A stretch of DNA of 40,514 bases from a virus. The translations under genes were made by a program, and so were the position numbers. This document shows, piece after piece, positions 168 to 40,395 of this stretch. Below the pieces are notes generated by a model. That model had not been told where the DNA came from. It did not search any database and saw only the letters and a program-made list of their open reading frames with translations. The DNA is taken from IMG/VR virus record IMGVR_UViG_3300046513_000272, positions 1 through 40,514 of that record; one strand, given 5' to 3'. Position 1 is the stretch's first letter. Each line of letters begins with the position of its first letter.

Positions 168-247
<80 letters not shown>

Positions 248-316: not shown

Positions 317-1426
317 TCATTTTGTAGGCGTTACCAGCTTGCCCTTCCGATGGCGCACATAGGTCCGTGTCATCGTCTCGGATGCGTGGCCCAGCTGGTC
401 TTTTGCCGCGCCCATGCCTTCCCGTTCTTCTTTGTCAGTACCAGCTTTCGCGCGCAGATCGCGGAACTGGAACTCACGAACTTCCTTCTCGAGGTCAGGG
501 CGCATTGCGACCGCCTTATCGCGCGCCTGGTCGAATGCATATCGGAACTCGCCTTCGCTCATCGGGACCAGTTTCAGGCTCGTCACCTTCTCGGCTTTGT
601 TCTCCGCCAGGATGCGGTCGATGACGAGCTCGAGCTCGCCCTCAATGGCAATGCGCAGCTTGGCGCCTGTCTTGTTCTGCTGGACCCACACGGCGCCGTC
701 CTTGAGGTCCGTTAGGCTGACCTTGAGCGCGTCGGCTTTGCGTTGCCCCATCAAGTAGGTCAGGTCCATTGCATTCCGAAGCTTCTGGCCGGCGCACGTC
801 CACACCAGGTTGTAAATCTCGTCCTCTACGTACACGCCGCGCGCCACCTCTTCATAGCCTTTGATGCCGGCGCAGGGGTTGGTCAGCCTGGTCAATCCCT
901 TCTCGCGAGCGAAGTTCCAGATGTGTGAGAAGAGGGCCTTTTCCCGATTCGCGCGCACGTGGCCGAGGTTCTTGGGAACGTCCAGAGGCTCCTTGCCCGC
1001 CGCTACTCGCTTCTTGTTTTCTGCCTTCCGTTTTTCGATTGTCCATTGGACACGCCAGTCTAGGAACTGGCGGATGTGGACCGGCTCGATGTCGTCAAGC
1101 ACAGCGGGTGGGTCGTCGAAGAACTTGTAGAGCATTGCAAGCTCGTCGAGGTTGTCCTCCTGGGTGCGCGGGGCCTTGCTCGGGAGTACTTCCCGCATAT
1201 ACCGCTCGGCGGCCTGGCGGAAGTAGACGACCTTGCCGACAGTGGGTGTGCCATTAAGCTTTGCCCACTCGATCACCGCTTGGGTGTAGTCCTTGCCAAC
1301 CGACTTCTCGCTGCGCTTGCCGTCCGGGCCGATCACCTCGACCGTGTAATAGGTGCCGGACTTGCCGCGGTGCCTGGCACGCATACCCTGCGGAAGATTT
1401 AGGTTTCTGGTTGGTTTACGGCCCAT
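317..1426 (-). CDS. int: phage site-specific tyrosine recombinase (integrase)
   Basis: This 369-aa integrase catalyses integration at the tRNA 3' end and, with a directionality factor, excision. The catalytic domain shows the family residues: Arg229 in GQRKADAL, Arg325 in FRDLRA (the usual H-x-x-R box, with the His position not conserved), His347 in LGHAS, and the nucleophile Tyr356 in TRTYVRHRKG. The N-terminal 200 residues hold a GTYYTVEV strand typical of an arm-binding domain and a helical core-binding region. ATG 1424-1426 follows the upstream DUF4224 stop codon by one base. It is the last gene of the leftward operon and stops beside the arm sites. The length is ordinary for the family. 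Confidence 0.95.
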   Translation of the reverse strand: MGRKPTRNLNLPQGMRARHRGKSGTYYTVEVIGPDGKRSEKSVGKDYTQAVIEWAKLNGTPTVGKVVYFRQAAERYMREVLPSKAPRTQEDNLDELAMLYKFFDDPPAVLDDIEPVHIRQFLDWRVQWTIEKRKAENKKRVAAGKEPLDVPKNLGHVRANREKALFSHIWNFAREKGLTRLTNPCAGIKGYEEVARGVYVEDEIYNLVWTCAGQKLRNAMDLTYLMGQRKADALKVSLTDLKDGAVWVQQNKTGAKLRIAIEGELELVIDRILAENKAEKVTSLKLVPMSEGEFRYAFDQARDKAVAMRPDLEKEVREFQFRDLRAKAGTDKEEREGMGAAKDQLGHASETMTRTYVRHRKGKLVTPTK

Positions 1427-3011: not shown

Positions 3012-3256
3012 GCGGCTCTCCTTCCAGTTTCTTCAAATACGTCGCGCAGCTGCGGGTGATACTCGAGCCAGAGCGCTACCTCCTGGTTGAGCTCCCGAAG
3101 CGCGGCAGCGTTTGCGTCCAGCTCTTGCTGCAGCGTCGCCTGAAACACCACGTGGCCCATGCGCTTGGCCTCGTCGAGCGATCGCTGGATCTCTGAGCGC
3201 ACCGTGATCAGTGCGCCGACGATCTGGCTCACGGTGTCTTTGCTGAGGTCTTTCAC
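3008..3256 (-). CDS. small helical protein of the leftward operon
   Basis: I place the start at GTG 3254-3256, preceded by GGAGG seven bases away, giving 82 aa. A longer reading frame up to 3412 exists but lies over the parB coding region and lacks a good ribosome site. The protein is helical ('SQIVGALITVRSEIQRSLDEAKRMG', 'ALRELNQEVALWLEYHPQLR') and could form a coiled coil. Start and stop overlap the neighbours by GTGA, so translation is coupled. Function unknown. Confidence 0.7.
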   Translation of the reverse strand: MKDLSKDTVSQIVGALITVRSEIQRSLDEAKRMGHVVFQATLQQELDANAAALRELNQEVALWLEYHPQLRDVFEETGRRAA

Positions 3257-5187
3257 GACGCGACCTCCGCTGCAGCGTGCTGCACCTGGTCGCGCTTGCT
3301 CTCGCTCGAGCTCGGGAAGGGCCACGCGCTGGCGGGTTGGGGCACTGCAGGCGTCGCATCGATCCGCAAGGCATCCAGCGACTTGCCGCTCTGGATCCAT
3401 TCGCTGACCCACTTTGGCTGCTTGCCGCGGCCAGTCCAGGCCTGCCCCGGGTCATTCGGGTTGCGGTACTGGACGGCGGGCGAACCTGCGTCCGCCCTAT
3501 CCTGGTGAGGCGCTGCAGGGACTTCCTGCTTCGGCGGGAAGATCTCGTTGCGAACTGCGTCGACGTCGACGCCTTCATGGCGTGACATCGCGGCGATCGG
3601 TGCAAACTCGGCATCCTGATCGGCGTCGCCGACGTTGTACCAGGTGAGTTCCAGCGTATGACCGAGAATCAGGTCGAGGAGGAGCAGCTGCAGCGCGCTG
3701 GCGTCTGCGGTTTCGATAAACGTTTCGAGGTCGGTCCTGACATCGCATTCGTAGAGGTCGTGCAGGCAATCTGCAAGATGACCTTGTTCGAGAACGGCCT
3801 TTGCATACTCGCGCATCGACTGCAGGCTCAGACCGGCCTGGCCCACCCGTTGGCGGAGCTGCTTGTACAGTGTCAGCCTGTAGGTCGTTTCTTTTTCGGC
3901 GGCAGCCTGTGCGGCCTGGTGCTTCTCTCGTCGCGCTTCTTCTGCAATCTGGTGCTCCGTCTTCGCAGGCGCCAGGCTCGGGTCGGCCTCGATCGCCCGC
4001 ATGCGCTCAGCGTGTCCTTCGACAGTCTCGCAAGCACCGGCAGCCTCAAGTGCGTGTTGCACGTCGGTGCGGCGGTAGTACGCCATAAGGTGGCCGTCGC
4101 CTTTCTTGACGTAGGCGGCGACTGGTGGAAACGTCTCGCTGTTCAGGTGGTCCCTGACGTAGCCGGAGTTTTTCGTCGACGGGGCGTTACGTGCAAAATA
4201 GCTCAGGTGCACGTCGGCATGGACGAATTCCGAGTCGCGGTCCCACGCCTTGCTTGCCATCGCATGGGCTTCGGCTGCCTCATGCACAGGGATGCCCTTC
4301 TTGTTTGCCGCTGTGATAGTGGCGTTGTAGTGCGCAGCCTTCTTTTCGGCAAAGCAGTCGGGATCAGTGCAGAGGTCTGGACTGACTCCCTCGAATACCT
4401 CGGGCTGGTTTCCCGCCCGCTTCGGGCACTTCGTGCACGCGCCAGCCGAGGCCAGAAGCTTTGCGTCAGTCAGCGAAAATACGGCGGTGCCCAAGTCCAG
4501 CATGTAGCGCTGCTGCACGTGATTCACCGCTTGGCGGTACGACATTGGTTCGCTGCTATAGGGCGGATTGAGGATCTCTTGCGCTGCCTTAGCCTGGAGC
4601 TTCCACGCTGGGATGCGAGCGATCAGCAGGGCGGTTGACGCCGACAGTTTGTCGTCCAGAAAGAGTTCGCGAACCTCAAGGCCAAGCGAGCACAGCTTCA
4701 GGCGGCCATAGATATACGACCGGCTCCGGTTGACCTCATAAGCTACCTGGTCGGCCGTGAAGCCGTGCTGCAGCATCAGCAGTTGGTAGCCCTCGGCCTC
4801 TTCCATCGGGTGAGGATCTTCCCGTTGCAGGTTCTCGAGGATGCGGATCTTGGCCGCGTCCAAGTCGCTGAGCTTGCGGCATAGGGCCGGGATATGAGTC
4901 TTGCCGGCGAGCTTGGACGCGCGGAACCGTCGTTCGCCGGCAACGATTTCGTATTCCGCCGGCGACTCCTCGGTCGGCGTCACCGGACGGATCAGGATCG
5001 CTTGTGCGACGCCCATCGCCTTGATGCTTTCGGCCAGCTCGTGCAGGGCCTGCTCATTAAAGCGCTTGCGGTTATCGGGGGATGCGCGCAGCTTGGCGAT
5101 CTCATACAGGCCATAGGTGCCCTGGTCGCTCGCAAGCTCGTCGACGGCGATCGACTGGTCAGTGGTGGCAAGTACGGTCGTGGTCAT
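3253..5187 (-). CDS. ParB/Spo0J-like CTPase-type protein with C-terminal H-NS-like DNA-binding motif
   Basis: This 644-aa protein starts at ATG 5185-5187 (GGAG seven bases upstream); the longer upstream frame is not supported. The ParB N-domain carries AILIRPV, GERRFRA (84-90, the CTP-binding box) and ENLQRED (118-124). A helix-turn-helix follows at about 143-165 (FTADQVAYEVNRSRSYIYG). Cysteine pairs CTKC and CTDPDC near 250-285 look like a zinc-binding element. The middle is a long charged helical linker. Near residues 572-609, 'YRNPNDPGQAWTGRGKQPKW' followed by VSEWIQSGKSLDALRI matches the AT-hook-like DNA-binding motif of H-NS family proteins. No ParA is encoded nearby. It may organise or silence phage DNA, possibly through the six-copy 18-bp palindrome in this prophage. 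Confidence 0.85.
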   Translation of the reverse strand: MTTTVLATTDQSIAVDELASDQGTYGLYEIAKLRASPDNRKRFNEQALHELAESIKAMGVAQAILIRPVTPTEESPAEYEIVAGERRFRASKLAGKTHIPALCRKLSDLDAAKIRILENLQREDPHPMEEAEGYQLLMLQHGFTADQVAYEVNRSRSYIYGRLKLCSLGLEVRELFLDDKLSASTALLIARIPAWKLQAKAAQEILNPPYSSEPMSYRQAVNHVQQRYMLDLGTAVFSLTDAKLLASAGACTKCPKRAGNQPEVFEGVSPDLCTDPDCFAEKKAAHYNATITAANKKGIPVHEAAEAHAMASKAWDRDSEFVHADVHLSYFARNAPSTKNSGYVRDHLNSETFPPVAAYVKKGDGHLMAYYRRTDVQHALEAAGACETVEGHAERMRAIEADPSLAPAKTEHQIAEEARREKHQAAQAAAEKETTYRLTLYKQLRQRVGQAGLSLQSMREYAKAVLEQGHLADCLHDLYECDVRTDLETFIETADASALQLLLLDLILGHTLELTWYNVGDADQDAEFAPIAAMSRHEGVDVDAVRNEIFPPKQEVPAAPHQDRADAGSPAVQYRNPNDPGQAWTGRGKQPKWVSEWIQSGKSLDALRIDATPAVPQPASAWPFPSSSESKRDQVQHAAAEVAS

Positions 5188-5555
5188 GCGTGCTCCAGGT
5201 TGGAAGGTTGAGGTTTCTTGACGGGGCCGGCCTTGCCGGCATCGGGGGTATAGAAGCCGAGGTCGAACTCGGCGCGGGTGACGCGGATGTGGACCATCCA
5301 CGCGGTGAAGCCACGCTTCGGCTGATGAGGTGCGCGGACTGGATCCGATACCTGATAGCCACGCGAACGCATGAGCTGCAGCACGTGCGGCAAGTGAAGG
5401 CGCTTGCCGTCTTCGGATACTTGGTCGACTGTGCAGACGTGTGCACTGCAAAACTTGTGCAGCGAGTCCCGGTCCCGAGCGTCTTCGAGCGCGCGGCTCA
5501 GTTCGCCGGTTCCTGGCACAGTAGTGCGTGCGCGAGAGGTTGGCGTACGGGTCAT
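5184..5555 (-). CDS. unknown phage protein, upstream of parB-like gene
   Basis: This 123-aa protein overlaps both neighbours by ATGA, so it is translated as part of the leftward operon. The central part, 'DGKRLHLPHVLQLMRSRGYQV', could be a helix-turn-helix or winged element, followed by 'GFTAWMVHIRVTRAEFDLGFY', likely beta strands. I do not recognise a named family. An 18-bp palindrome copy (5430-5447) lies within the gene. Confidence 0.65.
   Translation of the reverse strand: MTRTPTSRARTTVPGTGELSRALEDARDRDSLHKFCSAHVCTVDQVSEDGKRLHLPHVLQLMRSRGYQVSDPVRAPHQPKRGFTAWMVHIRVTRAEFDLGFYTPDAGKAGPVKKPQPSNLEHA
5430..5447. repeat. dispersed 18-bp palindrome, copy 1
   Basis: TGTGCAGACGTGTGCACT differs from the consensus TGTGCAGACGTCTGCACA at 2 of 18 positions. 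It lies inside a coding region about 240 bp upstream of the parB-like start. Confidence 0.65.
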
Positions 5556-5695
5556 GCCGGCACCACCGTGATGCCGAAAACGTCGTCACCCTGTTCGGCG
5601 GCAACCAGCTCGTACGCAGATGCCGAGGTAAAGGCGGGGCGGAAAAAATGACGGACTTTGCCGGCTTTCCGCAGGGTTACCAGGTAGTAGTACAT
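5552..5695 (-). CDS. 47-aa small protein, first gene of the leftward operon
   Basis: ATG 5693-5695 is preceded by AAAGGA at good spacing. The frame runs 47 codons, begins MYYYLVTLRKAGKVRHFF, and ends in TGA overlapping the next ATG by ATGA. It is the first gene after the leftward promoter at 5732-5761, a position used in lambdoid phages for small host-takeover proteins. It contains a beta-rich start and a helical 'SASAYELVAAEQGDD'. Function unknown. Confidence 0.65.
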   Translation of the reverse strand: MYYYLVTLRKAGKVRHFFRPAFTSASAYELVAAEQGDDVFGITVVPA

Positions 5696-5827: not shown

Positions 5828-5906
5828 TGAACGTACGTACGTTGCGTATCTGCATCGTGCGCAGCAAAGGGCTCAGCACACGAGAAATCTAAGAAACTGA
5901 AAAAGG

Positions 5907-5922
5907 CTGTATATTTATACAG
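5907..5922. promoter_or_regulatory. LexA (SOS) box
   Basis: CTGTATATTTATACAG fits the CTGT-N8-ACAG LexA consensus with an AT-rich spacer and a following TA, close to the strongest E. coli SOS boxes. It lies 75 bp upstream of the small rightward ORF at 5998 and inside a region otherwise free of genes. A second such box occurs at 38001-38016. The host LexA presumably binds both. Confidence 0.85.
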
Positions 5923-5997
5923 TATTTTTGTGTAGGATATTTCGTACAGAAAAGTTGCGATGCGCAAAGGCCAGCGCGATCGCTTGCGGGGTGAGAA

Positions 5998-6150
5998 GTG
6001 GAACAGTATTTCAGAGAGATGAAGGAGGCTCTCAGGGCGATGAGCCCCGAGGCACGTGCAGAGATGTTGAAGCTAGCGCAGGCGATGGCGAAAAGGCATC
6101 CTGCGCAGGCGCAGCCGTTGCTACGACTGGTGAGCGGAGCCCGCCGGTGA
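5998..6150 (+). CDS. 50-aa SOS-controlled small protein, candidate antirepressor
   Basis: The frame starts at GTG 5998-6000 (weak GGGGTGA upstream) and ends TGA 6148-6150. It encodes an amphipathic, helical, charged peptide beginning VEQYFREMKEALRAMSPEAR and continuing AEMLKLAQAMAKRHP. It runs convergent with, and overlaps by 30 bp, the repressor gene on the other strand. The LexA box at 5907-5922 is the only obvious control element. Because the repressor lacks a self-cleavage domain, a LexA-controlled antirepressor (as with Tum of phage 186 or Ant of Gifsy phages) is the expected missing part. That function is inferred from context; I recognise no family. Confidence 0.6.
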   Translation: MEQYFREMKEALRAMSPEARAEMLKLAQAMAKRHPAQAQPLLRLVSGARR

Positions 6151-6585
6151 TTCTTCGCCAGCTGCCGATTCGGCTGCAGTTTCGACCAGGCTCTTACCCA
6201 TGTCTGAAGCCTTGCGATAGAACGTGAGCAGATCTAACTCCCGCTGCGTCACATACACAAGAGCCATTTTCTGAGGCTCGACGTTTTCCACAACAGTAAG
6301 CTCAGGGCGTAGGGGGCGAAGCGTCGAGAGCGCCGCTGGTTCCTTCTCGGTCCGTAACGCCTGGCGGGCCGCTTCTTCGTCCTCGATGTCGAGCCACCCG
6401 GCCGGCACTTGGCATTTCGCCTCGAGCTTGCGCGCCTTGCGTTCACCGAAAGACTTGGTGCGCAACAGCCCTGAGACCTCACCTTGGTTCTCGCCGGTTT
6501 CATCCACGAACCGCGCTTGAGAGCCGTCATATCGCTCCCGGATTAACTGCGCCAGCCGTGCGCGTCGTATGTCTTGAATTTCCAT
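6121..6585 (-). CDS. phage repressor, HTH only (CI-like without LexA-type peptidase domain)
   Basis: The product is 154 aa. Residues 1-65 form a lambda-repressor-like HTH: 'RRARLAQLIRERYDGSQARF', 'ENQGEVSGLLRTKSFGERKA' and 'LEAKCQVPAGWLD'. This layout is typical of phage XRE repressors in Burkholderiales. The remainder, with VYVTQRELDLLTFYRKASD, is short and helical; no S24 Ala-Gly cleavage site or Ser/Lys dyad is present, and full CI proteins are usually above 200 aa. It lies between two inverted early promoters bearing the same operator, so it is the immunity repressor. Induction therefore needs another factor, probably the small SOS-controlled ORF that overlaps its end. Confidence 0.82.
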   Translation of the reverse strand: MEIQDIRRARLAQLIRERYDGSQARFVDETGENQGEVSGLLRTKSFGERKARKLEAKCQVPAGWLDIEDEEAARQALRTEKEPAALSTLRPLRPELTVVENVEPQKMALVYVTQRELDLLTFYRKASDMGKSLVETAAESAAGEESPAGSAHQS

Positions 6586-8162: not shown

Positions 8163-11100
8163 TGAGCAGTAAGGAACAAGTCGTCTTGCAAATGCTCGAG
8201 TACGGGCTGCCGACGCTGCCCGCAAACCACCCGATCATGAACGGCAAGTTCCAGCGCTTCGGGCCGCAGAAGAAGTGCTGGTACATCCTGCGCGAGCTGA
8301 CTCTGGCATCGGGCTCCACTGTCGTCACCGGTGCGTTCGGACGCTTCCAGGGCGAGAACCGCAACACGGTGCCGGTGAAGATCGACACCTCGAGCATGAC
8401 CGATGAGGACCGGGCCGAGTACACCCGGAAGCAACGTGCTGCCGAGAAGGCCGAGGAAGAGAAGCGCGAGCAGGCCGCACGCCTGGCAGCAGGCCGCGCC
8501 CGCGACCAGTGGCGCAAGGCCGAGGGCATCCCGCTCGTGCATCCGTACCTCACGCGCAAGCAGGTACCGGCCGAAGGGCTGCGTGTCGGGCTCGACGGTC
8601 GGCTTCTTATTCCCCTGGTGCGCGGCGGCCAGCTGCTCGGCCTGCAGAAGATCGACGCGGCCGGTGAAAAGATGCTCAACAAGGGCATGGACGCGATTGG
8701 CGTCGCGCATGTGCTCGGCAACCTGGCCGGCGCCCCGATCATCGCGGTCGGTGAGGGCTACGCGACCTGCGCCAGCGCCCGCCTGTCCCTCGCCCCTGGC
8801 TACGATCTCCCGGTCGTTGTCGCTCTCAACGCCGGCAACCTGATCCACGTCGCCAAGGCACTGCGTCAGCGTTATCCGCACGCACACCTGCTGCTGCTGG
8901 CCGACGACGACTACCTGCTGGTCGAGCGTTACGTCGAGTGTCTGCTGGAAGAGTTCAAGGTGTCCATCGAGGTGCCGATCGACGGCGCAACCCATCGCGT
9001 CACTGCCGATGATGGTGAGCAGGTTGAGGTGATGGCGCGGTGGCGTGCTGATGCCCAAGGTATTCGGTACATCGAGGCCGACGTCCGCAAGGGCCGCGTC
9101 GTTCGCACGCCCACGTTCACGAATGCCGGCGTCGCCAGCTGCCATGCAGCGGCTGCGGCCGTTGGCAACGCCTCGGTGGCCACGCCGCTGTTCGCGATCG
9201 ACAGGGCAGGGCGCAAGATCACGGATTGGAACGACCTCCACATCGAAGAAGGGCTGGACAAAGTCGCGGCGCAACTGGGGGCGTTCCTCCTCGCTGCGCA
9301 GCAGCGCAATACCGATTCTCCCGTCGAGCCCACGCAAGCGGCCGAGGGCGCCGGCGACGCCGACCCGCTGTACGACCAGGCAGTGACAGTAGTGTTGCAG
9401 CATCGCCGCGCGTCGATCTCCCTGGTGCAGCGTCACCTGCGTGTCGGGTACAACCGCGCCGCTCGCCTGCTCGAGCAGATGGAGCAGGCCGGAGTCGTGT
9501 CCGCGATGCTGTCGAACGGCGACCGTGAGCTCCTGGCGCCGGCGACAGCCGGTGCCTCCCTTTCCCTCGCTGCGCAGCAGCGCAATACCGAGTCCACCGC
9601 ATCCAACCCCGCGCAAGCGGCCGAGGCAGTGCAGCAGCCTGCGAACGTCCTCCCCTTCGCTGCGAAGCAGCGCAATATCGATTCTCCCCCTTCCCCCCAC
9701 GCGGAAGCGGCCGACGTGCAGTCGCCTGCGTCCCCCGCTCCCCCCGCTGCGGAGCAGCCGCGCGCAAGCGCGAATGAGGATGTGCCGCCGAATTTTGACG
9801 AGAGATTTGGTGAGAATGCGCCGCAAGGACGGAGCCCTGCCGGCGGCGCTTCGCGCGCGGGGGCGGGGGACGGTGGCGATGAGGACGACCAGGGCGAGAA
9901 GAAGCAGAAGGAAAAGCCCAAGAAGGTGTACGGGCGCGATCACTGGGACAAGGTCGACGATGTGCTGGAGAACTTCATCCTGGTGTACGGCGAGGACATG
10001 GTCTGGGACTGCCGGCATCGCATGCTGATGCGCCTTGCCGCCATGCGCACGATCGTGGCCAACAGTGACGTGATGAAGTTCTGGAGCGGCGACGCCCGCA
10101 AGTGGGTGCTCAAGAAAAACATCGTGTTCGACCCGAAGGAAACGCCGTCGCCGGCCGAGAGCGGCCCTACCGCCACGGTCAACCTGTTCAACGGCTGGCA
10201 GATGAGGCCCAAGAAGGGCAACTGCCTCCTGATTCGGACGCTGCTCGCGCACCTGTGCAACGGCGACGAGGAGCTGGAGACGTGGATCCTGCGCTGGCTG
10301 GCGTACCCGCTGCGGAACCCGGGCGCCAAGATGCCGACCTCGATCATCATGCACGGCGACGAGGGATCGGGCAAAAACTTCTTCTTCGAGCGCGTGGTGA
10401 AGCCGATCTACGGCGACTACGGCTACGTGATCGGCAACGACCAGCTGGAGTCGAAGTTCAACGACTGGGCCAGCATGAAGCTGTTCATGGTGGCGGACGA
10501 GGTGGTGACCAGGGCGGAACTCAAGCAGATGAAGGGCAAGCTCAAGGGCCTGATCAGTGGCGAGACCGTCATCGTCAATCCGAAGGGCATGCCTGAGCAC
10601 GTCGAGAAGAACCAGATGAATTTTGTGTTCCTCTCCAACGAGCTGCAGCCGCTGGCCCTGGACAAGACCGACCGCCGCTACCTGGTCGTGTGGACGCCGC
10701 CGGCGCTCGGCCGCGAGTTCTATGAAAGCGTCGGCGCCGAGATCGCGCAGGGCGGTATCGAGGCGTTTTACCACTTCCTGATGTACGAGCTGGACATGGG
10801 TGATTTCAACGCCCACACGAAGCCGATCTACAACGACGCCAAGGATAGCCTGATCGAAAAGAGCCTGGCGCCGGCCGAGAGGTTCTATCGCGAGTGGTCG
10901 CGCGGCTTTCTGCCGCTGCCGTTTATCACTGTCAGCGTCAACCAGCTGTACGACGCCTTCAAGGTGTGGTGTGCCCGATCGGGCGAGCCGATGTACACGT
11001 CCATGACTGCCTTCAGCCCGATGGTCGCGCGCTACGCCGGCGACGCCATGCGCAAGCACCTCATCAAGTATGACCTGGGCAGCAAGGTGAAGCAGCGCAT

Positions 11101-36084: not shown

Positions 36085-36561
36085 TCAGGGGCATTCCCAG
36101 AACCAGCACTCGACCGCGTGCCAGTAGACGTGGCCACCTTCGCAGACCAGACGATGATGCTCGTCGTGGCACATCAGGTCGATATGTCCCTGCGGGTCAT
36201 ACGGTCCCCATAGACCGACGAAGCGGATCACGCCACGTCGGTCGCCGATTCGCTCTCGTAGCAGCGCTGCGCCGAACTTCTCCGGCTCGCCCCAAACCGT
36301 GCACAAGTGGTTCGCCAGAATCTCCTGCTTGATCTCGACGCGGCGCCCTTTGTACTTCCCGGCTGCCACCACCAGGTAGGCGTTCGGTACGAATACTCCG
36401 ACACTGGCCAGTGCGAGGCTCATGCGTATCGCGCAGGTGTTGGCCCAATGCGGATTCTTCGCGTTCTCCGGATGGCCAACCCACTGCCAGAGTTCCTCGG
36501 CTGGGACGTTGTATGGGTCGGGGTAATGGGCACGCAGCACAATGTAGGGTGGTCGGTCCAT
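36085..36561 (-). CDS. tae4: type VI secretion amidase effector Tae4
   Basis: This 158-aa protein from ATG 36559-36561 overlaps the immunity stop as TAATG and has GGGGGA upstream. The Tae4 hallmarks are clear: Cys43 in NTCAIRMSLAL and His126 in QGHIDLMCHD, with an acidic residue nearby. Tae4 enzymes cut the gamma-D-Glu to mDAP bond of peptidoglycan in rival cells after T6SS delivery. No signal peptide is present, so it is not for phage lysis. The operon with Hcp and an immunity protein supports this role. Confidence 0.92.
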   Translation of the reverse strand: MDRPPYIVLRAHYPDPYNVPAEELWQWVGHPENAKNPHWANTCAIRMSLALASVGVFVPNAYLVVAAGKYKGRRVEIKQEILANHLCTVWGEPEKFGAALLRERIGDRRGVIRFVGLWGPYDPQGHIDLMCHDEHHRLVCEGGHVYWHAVECWFWECP

Positions 36562-37004
36562 TACATCCCCCTCAACCCGGGGCAGCAGCCGTCCGGCGGA
36601 CAGGGCCATTTGGTCTGCCACATTTCAATCACCAGCGCAGCGCCCCGTTCCTTGAGACGTGCACGTGGCAGCCGGCGCAAGAATTCGACAGCTTGCTCTC
36701 GCATGGCCTCGGGCGGCTGCTTCGGCGTCGGGCGGGGCTTATAGTCCGTGTAGCACCACAGCCCGCTCTCGGTGGCGTCGAACACCCCTTTGAGGTATTC
36801 GACGGTGCCGACGTCGCGACGCTCGAGCTGCTGCAGGAGCTGCGCACCGGTGAGCCAGGGGGCCGGCGCGGGGACAGTCTTGGCCGGCGTCCCGGGCATG
36901 ATGAAGGGGTGCTCGTCTTGGGCCTGCGATGCTGGCACGGAGGCCGCTGCCAGTGCCAGGGCCGCTACGGCGGCGACTCGGCGTACATTCAACGAGGATG
37001 CCAT
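36561..37004 (-). CDS. periplasmic immunity protein, Rap1a/Tai type
   Basis: This 147-aa protein has a signal peptide MASSLNVRRVAAVAALALAA ending near SQA. The mature part has 'WLTGAQLLQQLERRDVGTVE' then YLKGVFDATESGLWCY, and ends with EFLRRLPRARLKERGAALVI plus WPC, the pattern of Rap1a/Tai immunity proteins with paired cysteines. It would bind Tae4 in the periplasm of its own cell. Gene spacing to Hcp is one base. Confidence 0.82.
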   Translation of the reverse strand: MASSLNVRRVAAVAALALAAASVPASQAQDEHPFIMPGTPAKTVPAPAPWLTGAQLLQQLERRDVGTVEYLKGVFDATESGLWCYTDYKPRPTPKQPPEAMREQAVEFLRRLPRARLKERGAALVIEMWQTKWPCPPDGCCPGLRGM

Positions 37005-37005
37005 G

Positions 37006-37497
37006 TCATGCCACCCGGTTAGTGGCGAGGTCCCAGCCGCCAGCGGTATTGCCGCCGGCGCCGCCCGCGATCTTCTGCTGGGTGTACTTCCATTTCACCT
37101 TGGAGAACTTCAGACCGATGTGGTCCACCATCCCGACCCCGGCGGCCACCGACTGCGCCACCTCGCCCACGACGACGTTGTCCAGCTCGACCTCGTAATA
37201 CTTGACGCGGGTGCCCTGGCCATCCGCCCGGAAGAACTCGAACTTCGCCTTCGGGATCGTCTTGCCCATCGCGCAGTGCTGGGCAAGGATCGGTGAGGCC
37301 ATATCGGCCACCTTTGTAAATGCCACGTCTGACAGCTCGGCGCGTTCCGCGGTGTGCCCGCCGGCTGTCGATGACGTCGCGCTTCTAGGCTGGTGGAGCT
37401 TCCAGTGTACCGACGAGCACTCGATCCAGCCCACGTGCTGGCTGTCAGCTGACTCGCCCTTGATGCCGTCGATCTGCAGATAAACGTCGATCGCCAT
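37006..37497 (-). CDS. hcp: Hcp-family type VI secretion tube protein
   Basis: This 163-aa protein from ATG 37495-37497 has a strong AAAGGAGG site. It begins MAIDVYLQIDGIKGESADSQ and includes HVGWIECSSVHWKLHQPRSA and 'HCAMGKTIPKAKFEFFRADG', classic Hcp family sequence. Hcp hexamers stack as the T6SS inner tube and carry small effectors such as Tae4. No other T6SS genes are nearby, so this orphan Hcp must rely on a host-encoded machine. Confidence 0.95.
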   Translation of the reverse strand: MAIDVYLQIDGIKGESADSQHVGWIECSSVHWKLHQPRSATSSTAGGHTAERAELSDVAFTKVADMASPILAQHCAMGKTIPKAKFEFFRADGQGTRVKYYEVELDNVVVGEVAQSVAAGVGMVDHIGLKFSKVKWKYTQQKIAGGAGGNTAGGWDLATNRVA

Positions 37498-37633: not shown

Positions 37634-37942
37634 TCAATGCACCAGGTTCCAAGCATCTTCGATCTGACCGAAGATGATGGGCACGATCGAGGCGCCTGAA
37701 AACGATACTGGTCGGTCATCGTTAGGGTAGCCAAGCACCGGCGCCGACCGGATCATGTTAAGCGTCCATGCCGAGTGTTCTCCGCCTGCTTCCAGCTCGG
37801 CCAGCACCTCGCCTTCCATTCGGTGCAGCAGCGACCAGGTCAAAACACCTGAACACCTATGACGCATGACAACCTCGCGCACTGCACGGCTTGCTGCCTC
37901 ACTCGCTTCCGTCACCTCATCCCAGTCATACGGGGCCATCAT
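37634..37942 (-). CDS. unknown protein divergent from imuA
   Basis: I choose ATG 37940-37942 (AAGGA upstream) over a frame extending to 38008, which would start inside the LexA box. The product is 102 aa, beginning MMAPYDWDEVTEASEAASRA, with helical VREVVMRHRCSGVLTWSLLH. The SOS box at 38001-38016 lies 58 bp upstream, so it may be SOS-regulated as well. No known family. Confidence 0.65.
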   Translation of the reverse strand: MMAPYDWDEVTEASEAASRAVREVVMRHRCSGVLTWSLLHRMEGEVLAELEAGGEHSAWTLNMIRSAPVLGYPNDDRPVSFSGASIVPIIFGQIEDAWNLVH

Positions 37943-37973
37943 CGTCCTTTCCAATGCTTTGTTCTGTTGATTT

Positions 37974-38016
37974 TCGACAAGGTAATCCTGCCGCGATATA
38001 CTGTACAAATATACAG
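37974..38016 (+). promoter_or_regulatory. SOS promoter of imuA with LexA box
   Basis: -35 TCGACA (37974-37979), 17-bp spacer, -10 TATACT (37997-38002). The LexA box CTGTACAAATATACAG (38001-38016) overlaps the -10 end and likely start site, so LexA binding would block RNA polymerase. Confidence 0.85.
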
Positions 38017-38032
38017 TATTTGAGAATTCAAC

Positions 38033-38746
38033 ATGAATACAGCGACTGCCGCGGCCGAGCTAGAGGCGCTTCATCCTTCACTCTGGAGAGCATCGCAGCT
38101 GGGGCGCAGCCGTACCCGATGCGTCGACACTGGCCATCCGAGTTTGTCGAACCTGTTACCTGGTGGCGGCTGGCCAACTGGAGCGCTGGTTGACTTGCTC
38201 GTCCAGCAGCCGGGGATTGGCGAGGTGCGCTTCCTGGCGCCCGCGCTGGCGAAGGCGTCGAGCCGTAAGGTCGCGCTGCTGCAGCCGCCTCATTCGCCCC
38301 AGGCAATAGCACTTGCCGCAATGGGCGTGCCGCCGGCGTCGGTGCTTTGGCTGCGTGCCGATCGCACGGCCGATGCACTATGGGCGGCGGAGCAGGTGCT
38401 GCGCAGCGGAAGCTGCGGTGCGCTTCTCTTCTGGCAGTCCCAGATTCGGAGCGACAGTCTCAGGCGCCTGCACCTGGCGTCCCAAGCTGGTGAAACCCTG
38501 TTCTTCATGATGCGCCCGATCGCGGCCGCGCAGGACCCTTCGCCGGCGCCGCTGCGCTTGGGCCTGCGTCCTAAAGCTGGCGGTCTGGAGATCGAGTTCG
38601 TGAAGCGCCAGGGCCCTCGGCGTGACGAGCCGCTGTTCTTGCCGATGCAGGTCGGAAATGCAATCCGTCCTCGCCCGCAAGAGCACAGGGCGCCGGAGGT
38701 GGCGCGGGTATGGTCTGGCGAAGGTTCGCTAGCCGAGCAAACCTGA
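38033..38746 (+). CDS. imuA: ImuA-like translesion-synthesis accessory protein
   Basis: This 237-aa protein contains 'HPSLWRASQLGRSRTRCVDT' then GHPSLSNLLPGGGWPTGALV and the RecA/SulA-like core 'FLAPALAKASSRKVALLQPP' ... 'ASVLWLRADRTADALWAAEQ', and ends with LEIEFVKRQGPRR, the typical ImuA pattern. In many bacteria ImuA works with ImuB and DnaE2 in SOS mutagenesis. Here imuB and dnaE2 are missing: the gene is the last one before attR. It is under a LexA box. It may support the host's mutasome or act otherwise. Confidence 0.9.
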   Translation: MNTATAAAELEALHPSLWRASQLGRSRTRCVDTGHPSLSNLLPGGGWPTGALVDLLVQQPGIGEVRFLAPALAKASSRKVALLQPPHSPQAIALAAMGVPPASVLWLRADRTADALWAAEQVLRSGSCGALLFWQSQIRSDSLRRLHLASQAGETLFFMMRPIAAAQDPSPAPLRLGLRPKAGGLEIEFVKRQGPRRDEPLFLPMQVGNAIRPRPQEHRAPEVARVWSGEGSLAEQT

Positions 38747-38753
38747 TAAAATC

Positions 38754-38765
38754 TTTTCCGCAAAA
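38754..38765 (+). promoter_or_regulatory. putative integrase arm-type site at the right end
   Basis: TTTTCCGCAAAA is identical to the two copies beside attL. A degenerate inverted copy (ATTTGCGGAAC) lies at 38815-38825. The 121-bp stretch from the imuA stop to attR shows nothing else. Confidence 0.6.
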
Positions 38766-38867
38766 CGGGTCAGAAAAGTTTGCAAGCCCGGAGAAATCTG
38801 CTGAAAAATCGAGAATTTGCGGAACGAAAAATAGGGTAAGTTGTTGATTCTTAAGGATTTGTCAGCA

Positions 38868-38915
38868 GACTCATAATCCGTTGGTGCCGTGTTCGACTCA
38901 CGGGAGGCCTACCAA
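38868..38915 (+). repeat. attR core
   Basis: This is the second copy of the 48-bp attachment repeat, with T at 38910 in place of C at 242. Here it is only the 3' part of the tRNA; the D arm and acceptor 5' strand are absent, so it is not a second tRNA. Confidence 0.95.
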
Positions 38916-38934
38916 CATTTGTATTGCACGATCA

Positions 38935-38965
38935 AGGGGTTACGGTGTTCCGTAGCCCCTTTTTT
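38935..38965 (+). terminator. original host tRNA terminator, displaced by the prophage
   Basis: AGGGGTTACGG (38935-38945) pairs with CCGTAGCCCCT (38950-38960) with one G-T, then a run of T. It lies 20 bp beyond attR, where the terminator of the uninterrupted tRNA gene would have been. Confidence 0.88.
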
Positions 38966-38989: not shown

Positions 38990-40160
38990 TCATCCAGCGC
39001 GCGCGCGCCCGCCCGCCGCCCCCATCTTCCCGAACGCCGGCATGCACGGATGCGGCTCGAACACTACGCGGCAATCCAGCACTGCTGGCAGACCTGAGGA
39101 CAGCGCGCGTTCCAGCGCGGGCTTCACCTGCTCGCGCTCGGTCACGCGTTCGCCGTAGCAGCCGAATCCGCGCGCGATCCCGGCATAGTCGGTGCCCGCC
39201 AGGTCGACGCCGAATTCGAACGATTTGTTGCGTCGTTGCCCGGCGCGGATGACGCCCCACGCCTCATTGTTATGGATGATGTTCACCACCGGCAGCTGGT
39301 AGCGCCGGGCCGTGTCCATTTCCTGCAGCATGAATCCGAACGCGCCGTCACCCGTGATGTTGAATACCGGTTGGTCCGGGTGGACCAGCTTGAGCGCAAG
39401 GGCATAGGGCAAGCCGAAGCCGAGCTGCGCCATGCCCGGATCATGGAAGCGGGTGCGCAGCGCCAGGGCGGGTGTCAGTTCGTTGCTCCAGAAGCTAGTG
39501 TGTCCTCCGTCATAGGTCACCGAGGCATCAGGAGGCAGTTGCGCGGCGATGGACACCGCCAGCGCCGCCGGATGCATGGGCGTACCCGATGCGGTACTCA
39601 AGCGGGCCACCTGCTGATGATAATGCCGGTATTCCGCGACGAGTCCGGCTAGCCATTCGCTGCTGCCCTGCGCGCGATCCGGCCGCAGCAGTTTCAGCAA
39701 TTCGGTGAGGGCAACCGCGGCATCCGCACAGATGCCAACCGCGGCATCCGCACAGATGCCAACCGAGACGGGTGCATTGGCGCCGATCGTGGCGGGATTG
39801 ACGTCGATATGGATCAGCTTCTGCGAACGCTTGACCATGGCACCGTGCTCGTTCCAGAGCCAGGACGAGAAACGGCAACCGACCGCCAGGATGACATCGG
39901 CTTCATCGAAGGCGCGCATCAGTGCTGGGCCGCCGATCACGCCGCCGTGGCCGACGAAATTCGGATGCGTGGTTGGATGGCGCCGATGCCCATCTGCGTG
40001 GAGGTCGCCGCGCCGTTGATGGCGGACGCAATCGCCTGCGCCTGTGGCGCCGCCTGCGCCGCGACCACCCCGTCGCCGGCGATGATCAGCGGCCGTTTCG
40101 CATTTTCCAGGAGCGCGGCGGCGGCCTCCAGCGCGTGGCGGGCCGCCGGCATCATGGAGC
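38990..40160 (-). pseudogene. TPP-dependent enzyme pseudogene (acetolactate synthase-like), truncated and frameshifted
   Basis: The C-terminal TPP-binding domain is intact, with GDGAFGFMLQEMDTARRYQL and NIIHNNEAWGVI, as in acetolactate synthase or benzoylformate decarboxylase-type enzymes. The central domain reads 'RHALEAAAALLENAKRPLII' then AGDG in one frame down to about 39976, and resumes THPNFVGHGGVIGGPALMRA in another, so one base is missing near 39975. The N-terminal domain (about 180 residues) is absent beyond about 40160. This is a decayed host gene. Confidence 0.82.
39712..39759. repeat. 24-bp tandem duplication in the TPP pseudogene
   Basis: Two exact 24-bp units (39712-39735 and 39736-39759) encode a doubled VGICADAA. 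It is in frame, probably a recent slippage event in a gene no longer under selection. Confidence 0.85.
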
Positions 40161-40395
40161 TTGATCGTGTGTGAACCAAATGTTGGCAATTGCATCAAAA
40201 GGTGCGTCCGGGGAGCTTCGTCGCTATAGGTTGATTGACCAAACTGCCGAGCAACGGGGAAATGGTTGTTACCGCGAAAACCAAACGGTAATGAATCAAG
40301 ACTCAAGCTTGGACGGTGAACGGCGTCATTGATCCCCGGCGCGCAGCATGGCCGCGTGAGCGTACATGTGCACACATTTTCGATAGCAGGGGATC
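40161..40395. other. non-coding host DNA between pseudogene and NTF2-like gene
   Basis: No convincing gene is seen. An operator-like stretch, AAAACCAAACGGTAAT (40277-40292), matches the prophage operator at 13 of 16 positions but lies outside attR. The junction near 40160, where the pseudogene similarity stops, may mark a deletion or old insertion; no IS ends recognised. Confidence 0.5.

Follow-up and report, generated by a model that had tools for sequence, protein, structure and literature searches.

Phage P1 encodes HumD, a lone UmuD′ homologue that serves as an accessory subunit for Pol V. Regulation of HumD by LexA has been described (PMC9603915). Mobile elements with the full imuABC cassette are known, e.g. 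ICEPni2 (PMC7466150), and a full cassette is also present on the mobile element pBMUL01 of B. multivorans. These elements resemble the phages addressed here in carrying mobile SOS mutagenesis genes, although they hold all three genes and the phages imuA only. Compared with the imuA-imuB-(dnaE2) SOS cassettes of chromosomes and plasmids, the imuA gene studied here agrees in family, in its core, in a LexA box shortly 5′ of the start and in its ATPase-dead character. It differs in standing alone, in belonging to a separate mobile clade, and in having no 68–80 nt overlap with imuB and therefore a free C-terminal tail. By analogy, phage ImuA may be likened to HumD as a LexA-controlled accessory subunit supplied singly by a phage to an SOS polymerase of the host, although HumD is an unrelated protein and its polymerase is Pol V, not ImuB-DnaE2. 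No description of a phage-borne lone imuA was found in literature naming both ImuA and a prophage (mostly outside subscription papers), and its novelty is unproven.

The window, i.e. the whole 40.5-kb stretch of DNA analysed, carries a temperate-phage gene set comprised of integrase, primase, terminase, portal, tape measure, tail and endolysin genes. Residues 16–194 of the product of its last phage ORF match the NCBIfam model ImuA_translesion (NF033429) with 225 bits (5.5e-67). This is a curated equivalog model with a cut-off of 150 bits, and the match assigns the product to ImuA. Neither imuB nor dnaE2 was found anywhere in the window; the gene has no cassette neighbourhood and is alone, as stated in the earlier note. 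The same note described a promoter of its own overlapped by a LexA box, and both elements were recovered. The hexamers TCGACA (37974–37979) and TATACT (37997–38002), separated by a 17-nt spacer, form the sole sigma-70-like match in 37800–38960, with 0.2 expected from shuffles. The perfect 20-nt LexA box is the single match in the 40.5 kb (0 in 100 shuffles; chance 0.00), and with this box in its promoter imuA is a predicted gene of the SOS regulon. Of the extent proposed earlier for the feature, 38001–38746, the end stands while the start does not, as 38001 falls inside the LexA box and coding begins at 38033. Coordinates of all features are listed in Table 1.

Table 1. Features of the window related to imuA, the prophage borders and the second LexA box.
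Feature	Position	Strand	Evidence or remark
attL core, 3′ end of tRNA gene (CAT anticodon, 168–246)	195..247	+	repeat match
Tyrosine integrase	317..1426	-	PF00589 3e-10; phrog_1 4e-31
Second LexA box GGCTGTATATTTATACAGTA	5905..5924	+	kept in L082 plus eight other phage contigs
50-aa ORF behind second LexA box	5998..6150	+	faces repressor gene
DUF2471 protein	37634..37942	-	PF10616 5e-10; divergent neighbour of imuA
Sigma-70-like promoter TCGACA-N17-TATACT	37974..38002	+	promoter scan
LexA box TACTGTACAAATATACAGTA	37999..38018	+	overlaps -10 of imuA promoter
imuA	38033..38746	+	237 aa; stand-alone ImuA of the ATPase-dead kind; NF033429, RecA-like model, dN/dS
attR core repeat (3′ part of tRNA gene)	38863..38915	+	51/53 identical to 195–247

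The TATACT hexamer with the overlapping LexA box is kept in most phage copies of imuA, and TCGACA with the 17-nt spacer in a subset of them. The divergent DUF2471 neighbour recurs in contigs L082, L087, L092, L094 and L096. In L002, L091, L099, L100 and L102, an FNR/Anr-like dyad (TTTGAGCTAGATCAAA and variants) lies just 5′ of the imuA -10; it is not present at the promoter in the window.

The position of imuA as the last gene before attR, claimed previously, was confirmed, its stop codon being ~117 nt 5′ of the attR repeat. The IMG/VR contig L082 represents a sister phage, with ~90% identity over several stretches. In this contig, the match to 37636–38915 is joined directly to the match to 195–2064, with a shared 53-nt core at the junction. 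Judged by its arrangement, in which imuA and int flank it on opposite sides, this junction is attP. Because L082 carries imuA, attP and int contiguously, imuA is phage DNA and not host DNA past the border, and a host origin of the border region was ruled out. The suggestion that the gene is captured host DNA in the sense of border DNA thus fails, as imuA lies inside the att sites and the phage lineage is separate from present host genes. In the host flank, a gene for a TPP-dependent enzyme (38990–40375, minus strand) has an apparently shortened N-terminus, and the final 127 bases of the window show 78–87% identity to genomes of the Massilia-type genus.

Some further features of the window were also noted. 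Downstream of the second LexA box, the 50-aa ORF recurs in nine viral contigs at 71–98% identity, and a LexA box lies 77–93 nt upstream of it in every one. It converges on a repressor-like gene (6121–6585, minus strand) without a recognised peptidase domain, and possibly encodes a small SOS-induced antirepressor; if so, the phage would be inducible through LexA. At 36561–37497 (minus strand), a lone T6SS Hcp-like protein (PF05638, 1e-37) adjoins a Rap1a-type immunity-like protein (PF18602, 2.5e-7), with dN/dS against L082 of 0.04 and 0.10, respectively, indicating purifying selection. The protein encoded at 3253–5604 (minus strand) has an unusual domain composition: ParB-N, HTH and, at the C-terminus, an H-NS DNA-binding domain. 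Its true start may be 3′ of the listed TTG.

The lone imuA of the window, a prophage in a soil bacterium, is not peculiar to one prophage. A first scan disclosed 28 viral contigs with ImuA relatives, and neither imuB nor dnaE2 was found near imuA within flanks of up to 10 kb in any of them. The wider scan extended the set to 51 distinct viral contigs, all of the first 28 included. In flanks of up to 6 kb, imuB was found in 0/51 and dnaE2 beside imuA in one (L194). There, dnaE2 follows directly 3′ of imuA, and the start of imuB is retained while the remainder is deleted, as in a deletion remnant. A LexA box precedes imuA in all 51 contigs; one of these boxes deviates at one core position. The 51 contigs give a positive answer to the earlier question of whether imuA is found at this end in other prophages. 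In 26 of them no more than 1.5 kb separates imuA from the contig end, against three or four expected by chance, as estimated from the lengths of the viral contigs, and in nine further ones an integrase gene comes directly after imuA. Lysozyme and other late genes are located 5′ of imuA in many viral contigs, and related elements occupy other tRNA sites, namely His (L099, L145) and Leu (L152).

Among 62 genomes of the host genus, including Massilia sp. YIM B02443, eight contain nine copies of lone imuA alongside the host copies; one of the nine is on a plasmid, NZ_CP019036. At locus L150 of genome G027 (~10043–10426), a phage imuA beside the att core is reduced to its last third; this remnant is 85% identical to imuA of the window and constitutes the scar of a prophage at a site of this kind. 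A tblastn search of INPHARED phages with ImuA gave no match, nor did a search of PHROGs. Absence of imuA from phage G066 was rejected as evidence, since this record is without the right prophage end.

For the phylogeny we used only the core (RecA-like) columns of ImuA, with the overlap-affected tail excluded. A single clade (support 93/88; 91% of bootstrap trees) unites 58 lone ImuAs encoded by phages, prophages and one plasmid. Separate as it is from present host genes, this mobile lineage nonetheless branches beside the chromosomal ImuAs of Oxalobacteraceae. A second, small clade (L107, L108 and L081) is placed among Burkholderiaceae, and a second capture is therefore likely; two of its members, contigs with lengths of 80 and 279 kb, are possibly not ordinary phages. 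Comparison of core imuA between the window and L082 gave dN 0.034 and dS 0.369 (dN/dS 0.09), and the median pairwise dN/dS was 0.19 among mobile copies, compared with 0.25 among chromosomal ones. Values of about 0.1–0.2 indicate that phage imuA is maintained by purifying selection. They also bear on the proposal that imuA was captured once and has been carried as passive cargo without benefit, for which its location at the attP end, a site where cargo genes accumulate, could be taken as an argument. Purifying selection (dN/dS 0.09–0.19) already largely refutes it, and the deep single clade of 58 mobile copies and the retention of the LexA box in all viral copies also speak against it, making passive carriage very improbable.

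A conserved C-terminal tail is common to chromosomal ImuAs and missing in phage ImuAs. This tail is encoded where imuA overlaps imuB. In four chromosomal cassettes without the overlap (L071, L073, L075 and L077) the tail is missing, and L194, from which imuB is deleted, retains it. Because the tail tracks the 68–80 nt overlap, its loss is no sign of altered function and was set aside as an imuB-overlap artefact.

The AlphaFold2 model of ImuA from the window has a mean pLDDT of 83.5, exceeding 90 in the core. The predicted structure aligns with RecA over 176 residues (Z 19.1, rmsd 2.4), which supports the RecA-like core fold. The RecA/SulA-like fold named in the earlier note thus agrees with the model, with weak matches on the SulA side. 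These matches (30.7 bits; PDB SulA matches at E 0.001) would be what suggests a SulA-like division inhibitor that blocks FtsZ upon SOS induction. However, scores of 30.7 against a cut-off of 150 bits and 30.3 against 162 lie far below SulA family membership and the ImuA model is ahead by ~195 bits, so that we regard division inhibition as highly unlikely. In place of the Walker A lysine stands an invariant E64, and W134 occupies the position of the Walker B aspartate. With these residues lost, the protein is predicted to be ATPase-dead, like the ImuA1 group, in which Walker A and B are lost (PMC12926913).

Conservation of the putative partner surface is uneven. In RecA, residues 112–117 form the surface contacting UmuC in Pol V (PMC6511836), and the RecA surface for the N-terminal motif of its neighbour aligns with ImuA from residue 102 onward. 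The ImuA helix/strand 114–130 (RecA 124–140) is the least divergent part of the protein, the phage consensus agreeing with the host consensus at 17/17 positions. Phage and host ImuAs differ most in the loop 102–113 (RecA 112–123), the acceptor-site rim; Q103-L104 are fixed in host ImuAs, and S and A/V take their place in most phage ImuAs. Clustering of divergence in 102–113 is borderline (267/5000 shuffles, 5%). On the partner side, the segment R..ELL.ARLG..NVL is conserved in host ImuBs at the expected place of the RecA-NT motif, and in mycobacteria this motif of ImuB is needed for ImuA′ binding (PMC11791113).

An acceptor helix retained next to a changed rim, together with the constant lack of imuB beside phage imuA, would suit an antagonist of the mutasome: lone ImuA would occupy ImuB without productive DnaE2 engagement, damping host SOS mutagenesis and protecting the phage genome or the host. 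Yet phage ImuA has the host consensus at 47/55 positions in 152–206 and 35/40 in 11–50, with no obvious lost surface in this remaining core, and its C-terminal difference is the overlap artefact. We consider antagonism improbable.

The altered rim and the predicted fold could also point to a modulator of RecA, in which phage ImuA caps or disturbs the RecA filament, limits recombination or co-protease activity and thereby shapes prophage induction. The phage repressor is without a recognised S24 peptidase domain, and RecA would therefore act on the phage through LexA. Myxococcus xanthus ImuA, a member of the wider ImuA family, inhibits RecA according to Sheng 2021, as that work is cited in PMC9578287 and PMC11791113. 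However, it is placed in ImuA3, an ATPase-active group (PMC12926913), whereas ImuA of the window is without the Walker residues, and the activity of Caulobacter ImuABC is RecA-independent (PMC9578287). Modulation of RecA is on balance unlikely. Antagonism, as competition with host ImuA, and RecA action fit the sequence equally and are ranked as less likely than a mutasome subunit.

Action on the host mutasome, as put forward previously, is likely in view of the intact ImuA core, the LexA box and the presence of ImuB and DnaE2 in the host genus. The imuA-imuB-dnaE2 cassette whose presence was to be checked was found at the level of the host genus, with imuA in 60, imuB in 61 and dnaE2 in 62 of the 62 genomes. 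We give about an even chance to the reading that imuA of the window is a phage-borne spare subunit of the host ImuA-ImuB-DnaE2 translesion mutasome, acting in trans. Family and fold, the conserved LexA box, the acceptor helix, host imuB and dnaE2, and purifying selection are all consistent with it. Since the LexA box covers the -10, host LexA and not the phage repressor should govern imuA expression in the lysogen. Upon DNA damage, LexA cleavage would turn on phage imuA and its product would build up, bind the RecA-NT motif of host ImuB via the conserved acceptor helix (residues 114–130), and form or extend mutasomes with host ImuB and DnaE2. Both damaged host DNA and a damaged phage genome, induced or incoming, would then be tolerated better and mutated more. 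Phage ImuA would then act as HumD does for Pol V, i.e. as one accessory subunit in trans with no polymerase of its own.

The host's own ImuA and the divergent acceptor rim speak against the spare-subunit reading. Because the host already makes ImuA from a gene overlapping imuB, the need for extra ImuA alone is unexplained. A conserved acceptor surface would also be expected under a dominant-negative or RecA-binding role. As a tentative possibility, phage ImuA might be a regulator: with the helix kept and the rim 102–113 remodelled, it would capture host ImuB or RecA selectively and so steer the lysogen's SOS response in another direction. Mutasome activity could then, for example, be switched to phage DNA, or blocked.

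The existence of about fifty related viruses with lone imuA suggests that phages tune how the host copies damaged DNA. These many natural ImuAs, without linked imuB, under selection and preceded by LexA boxes, offer a direct test bed for the role of ImuA in the mutasome, and make it testable whether ImuA alone in trans raises, blocks or redirects mutagenesis. They also raise the possibility that damage-induced mutation rates in Oxalobacteraceae are changed by lysogeny.
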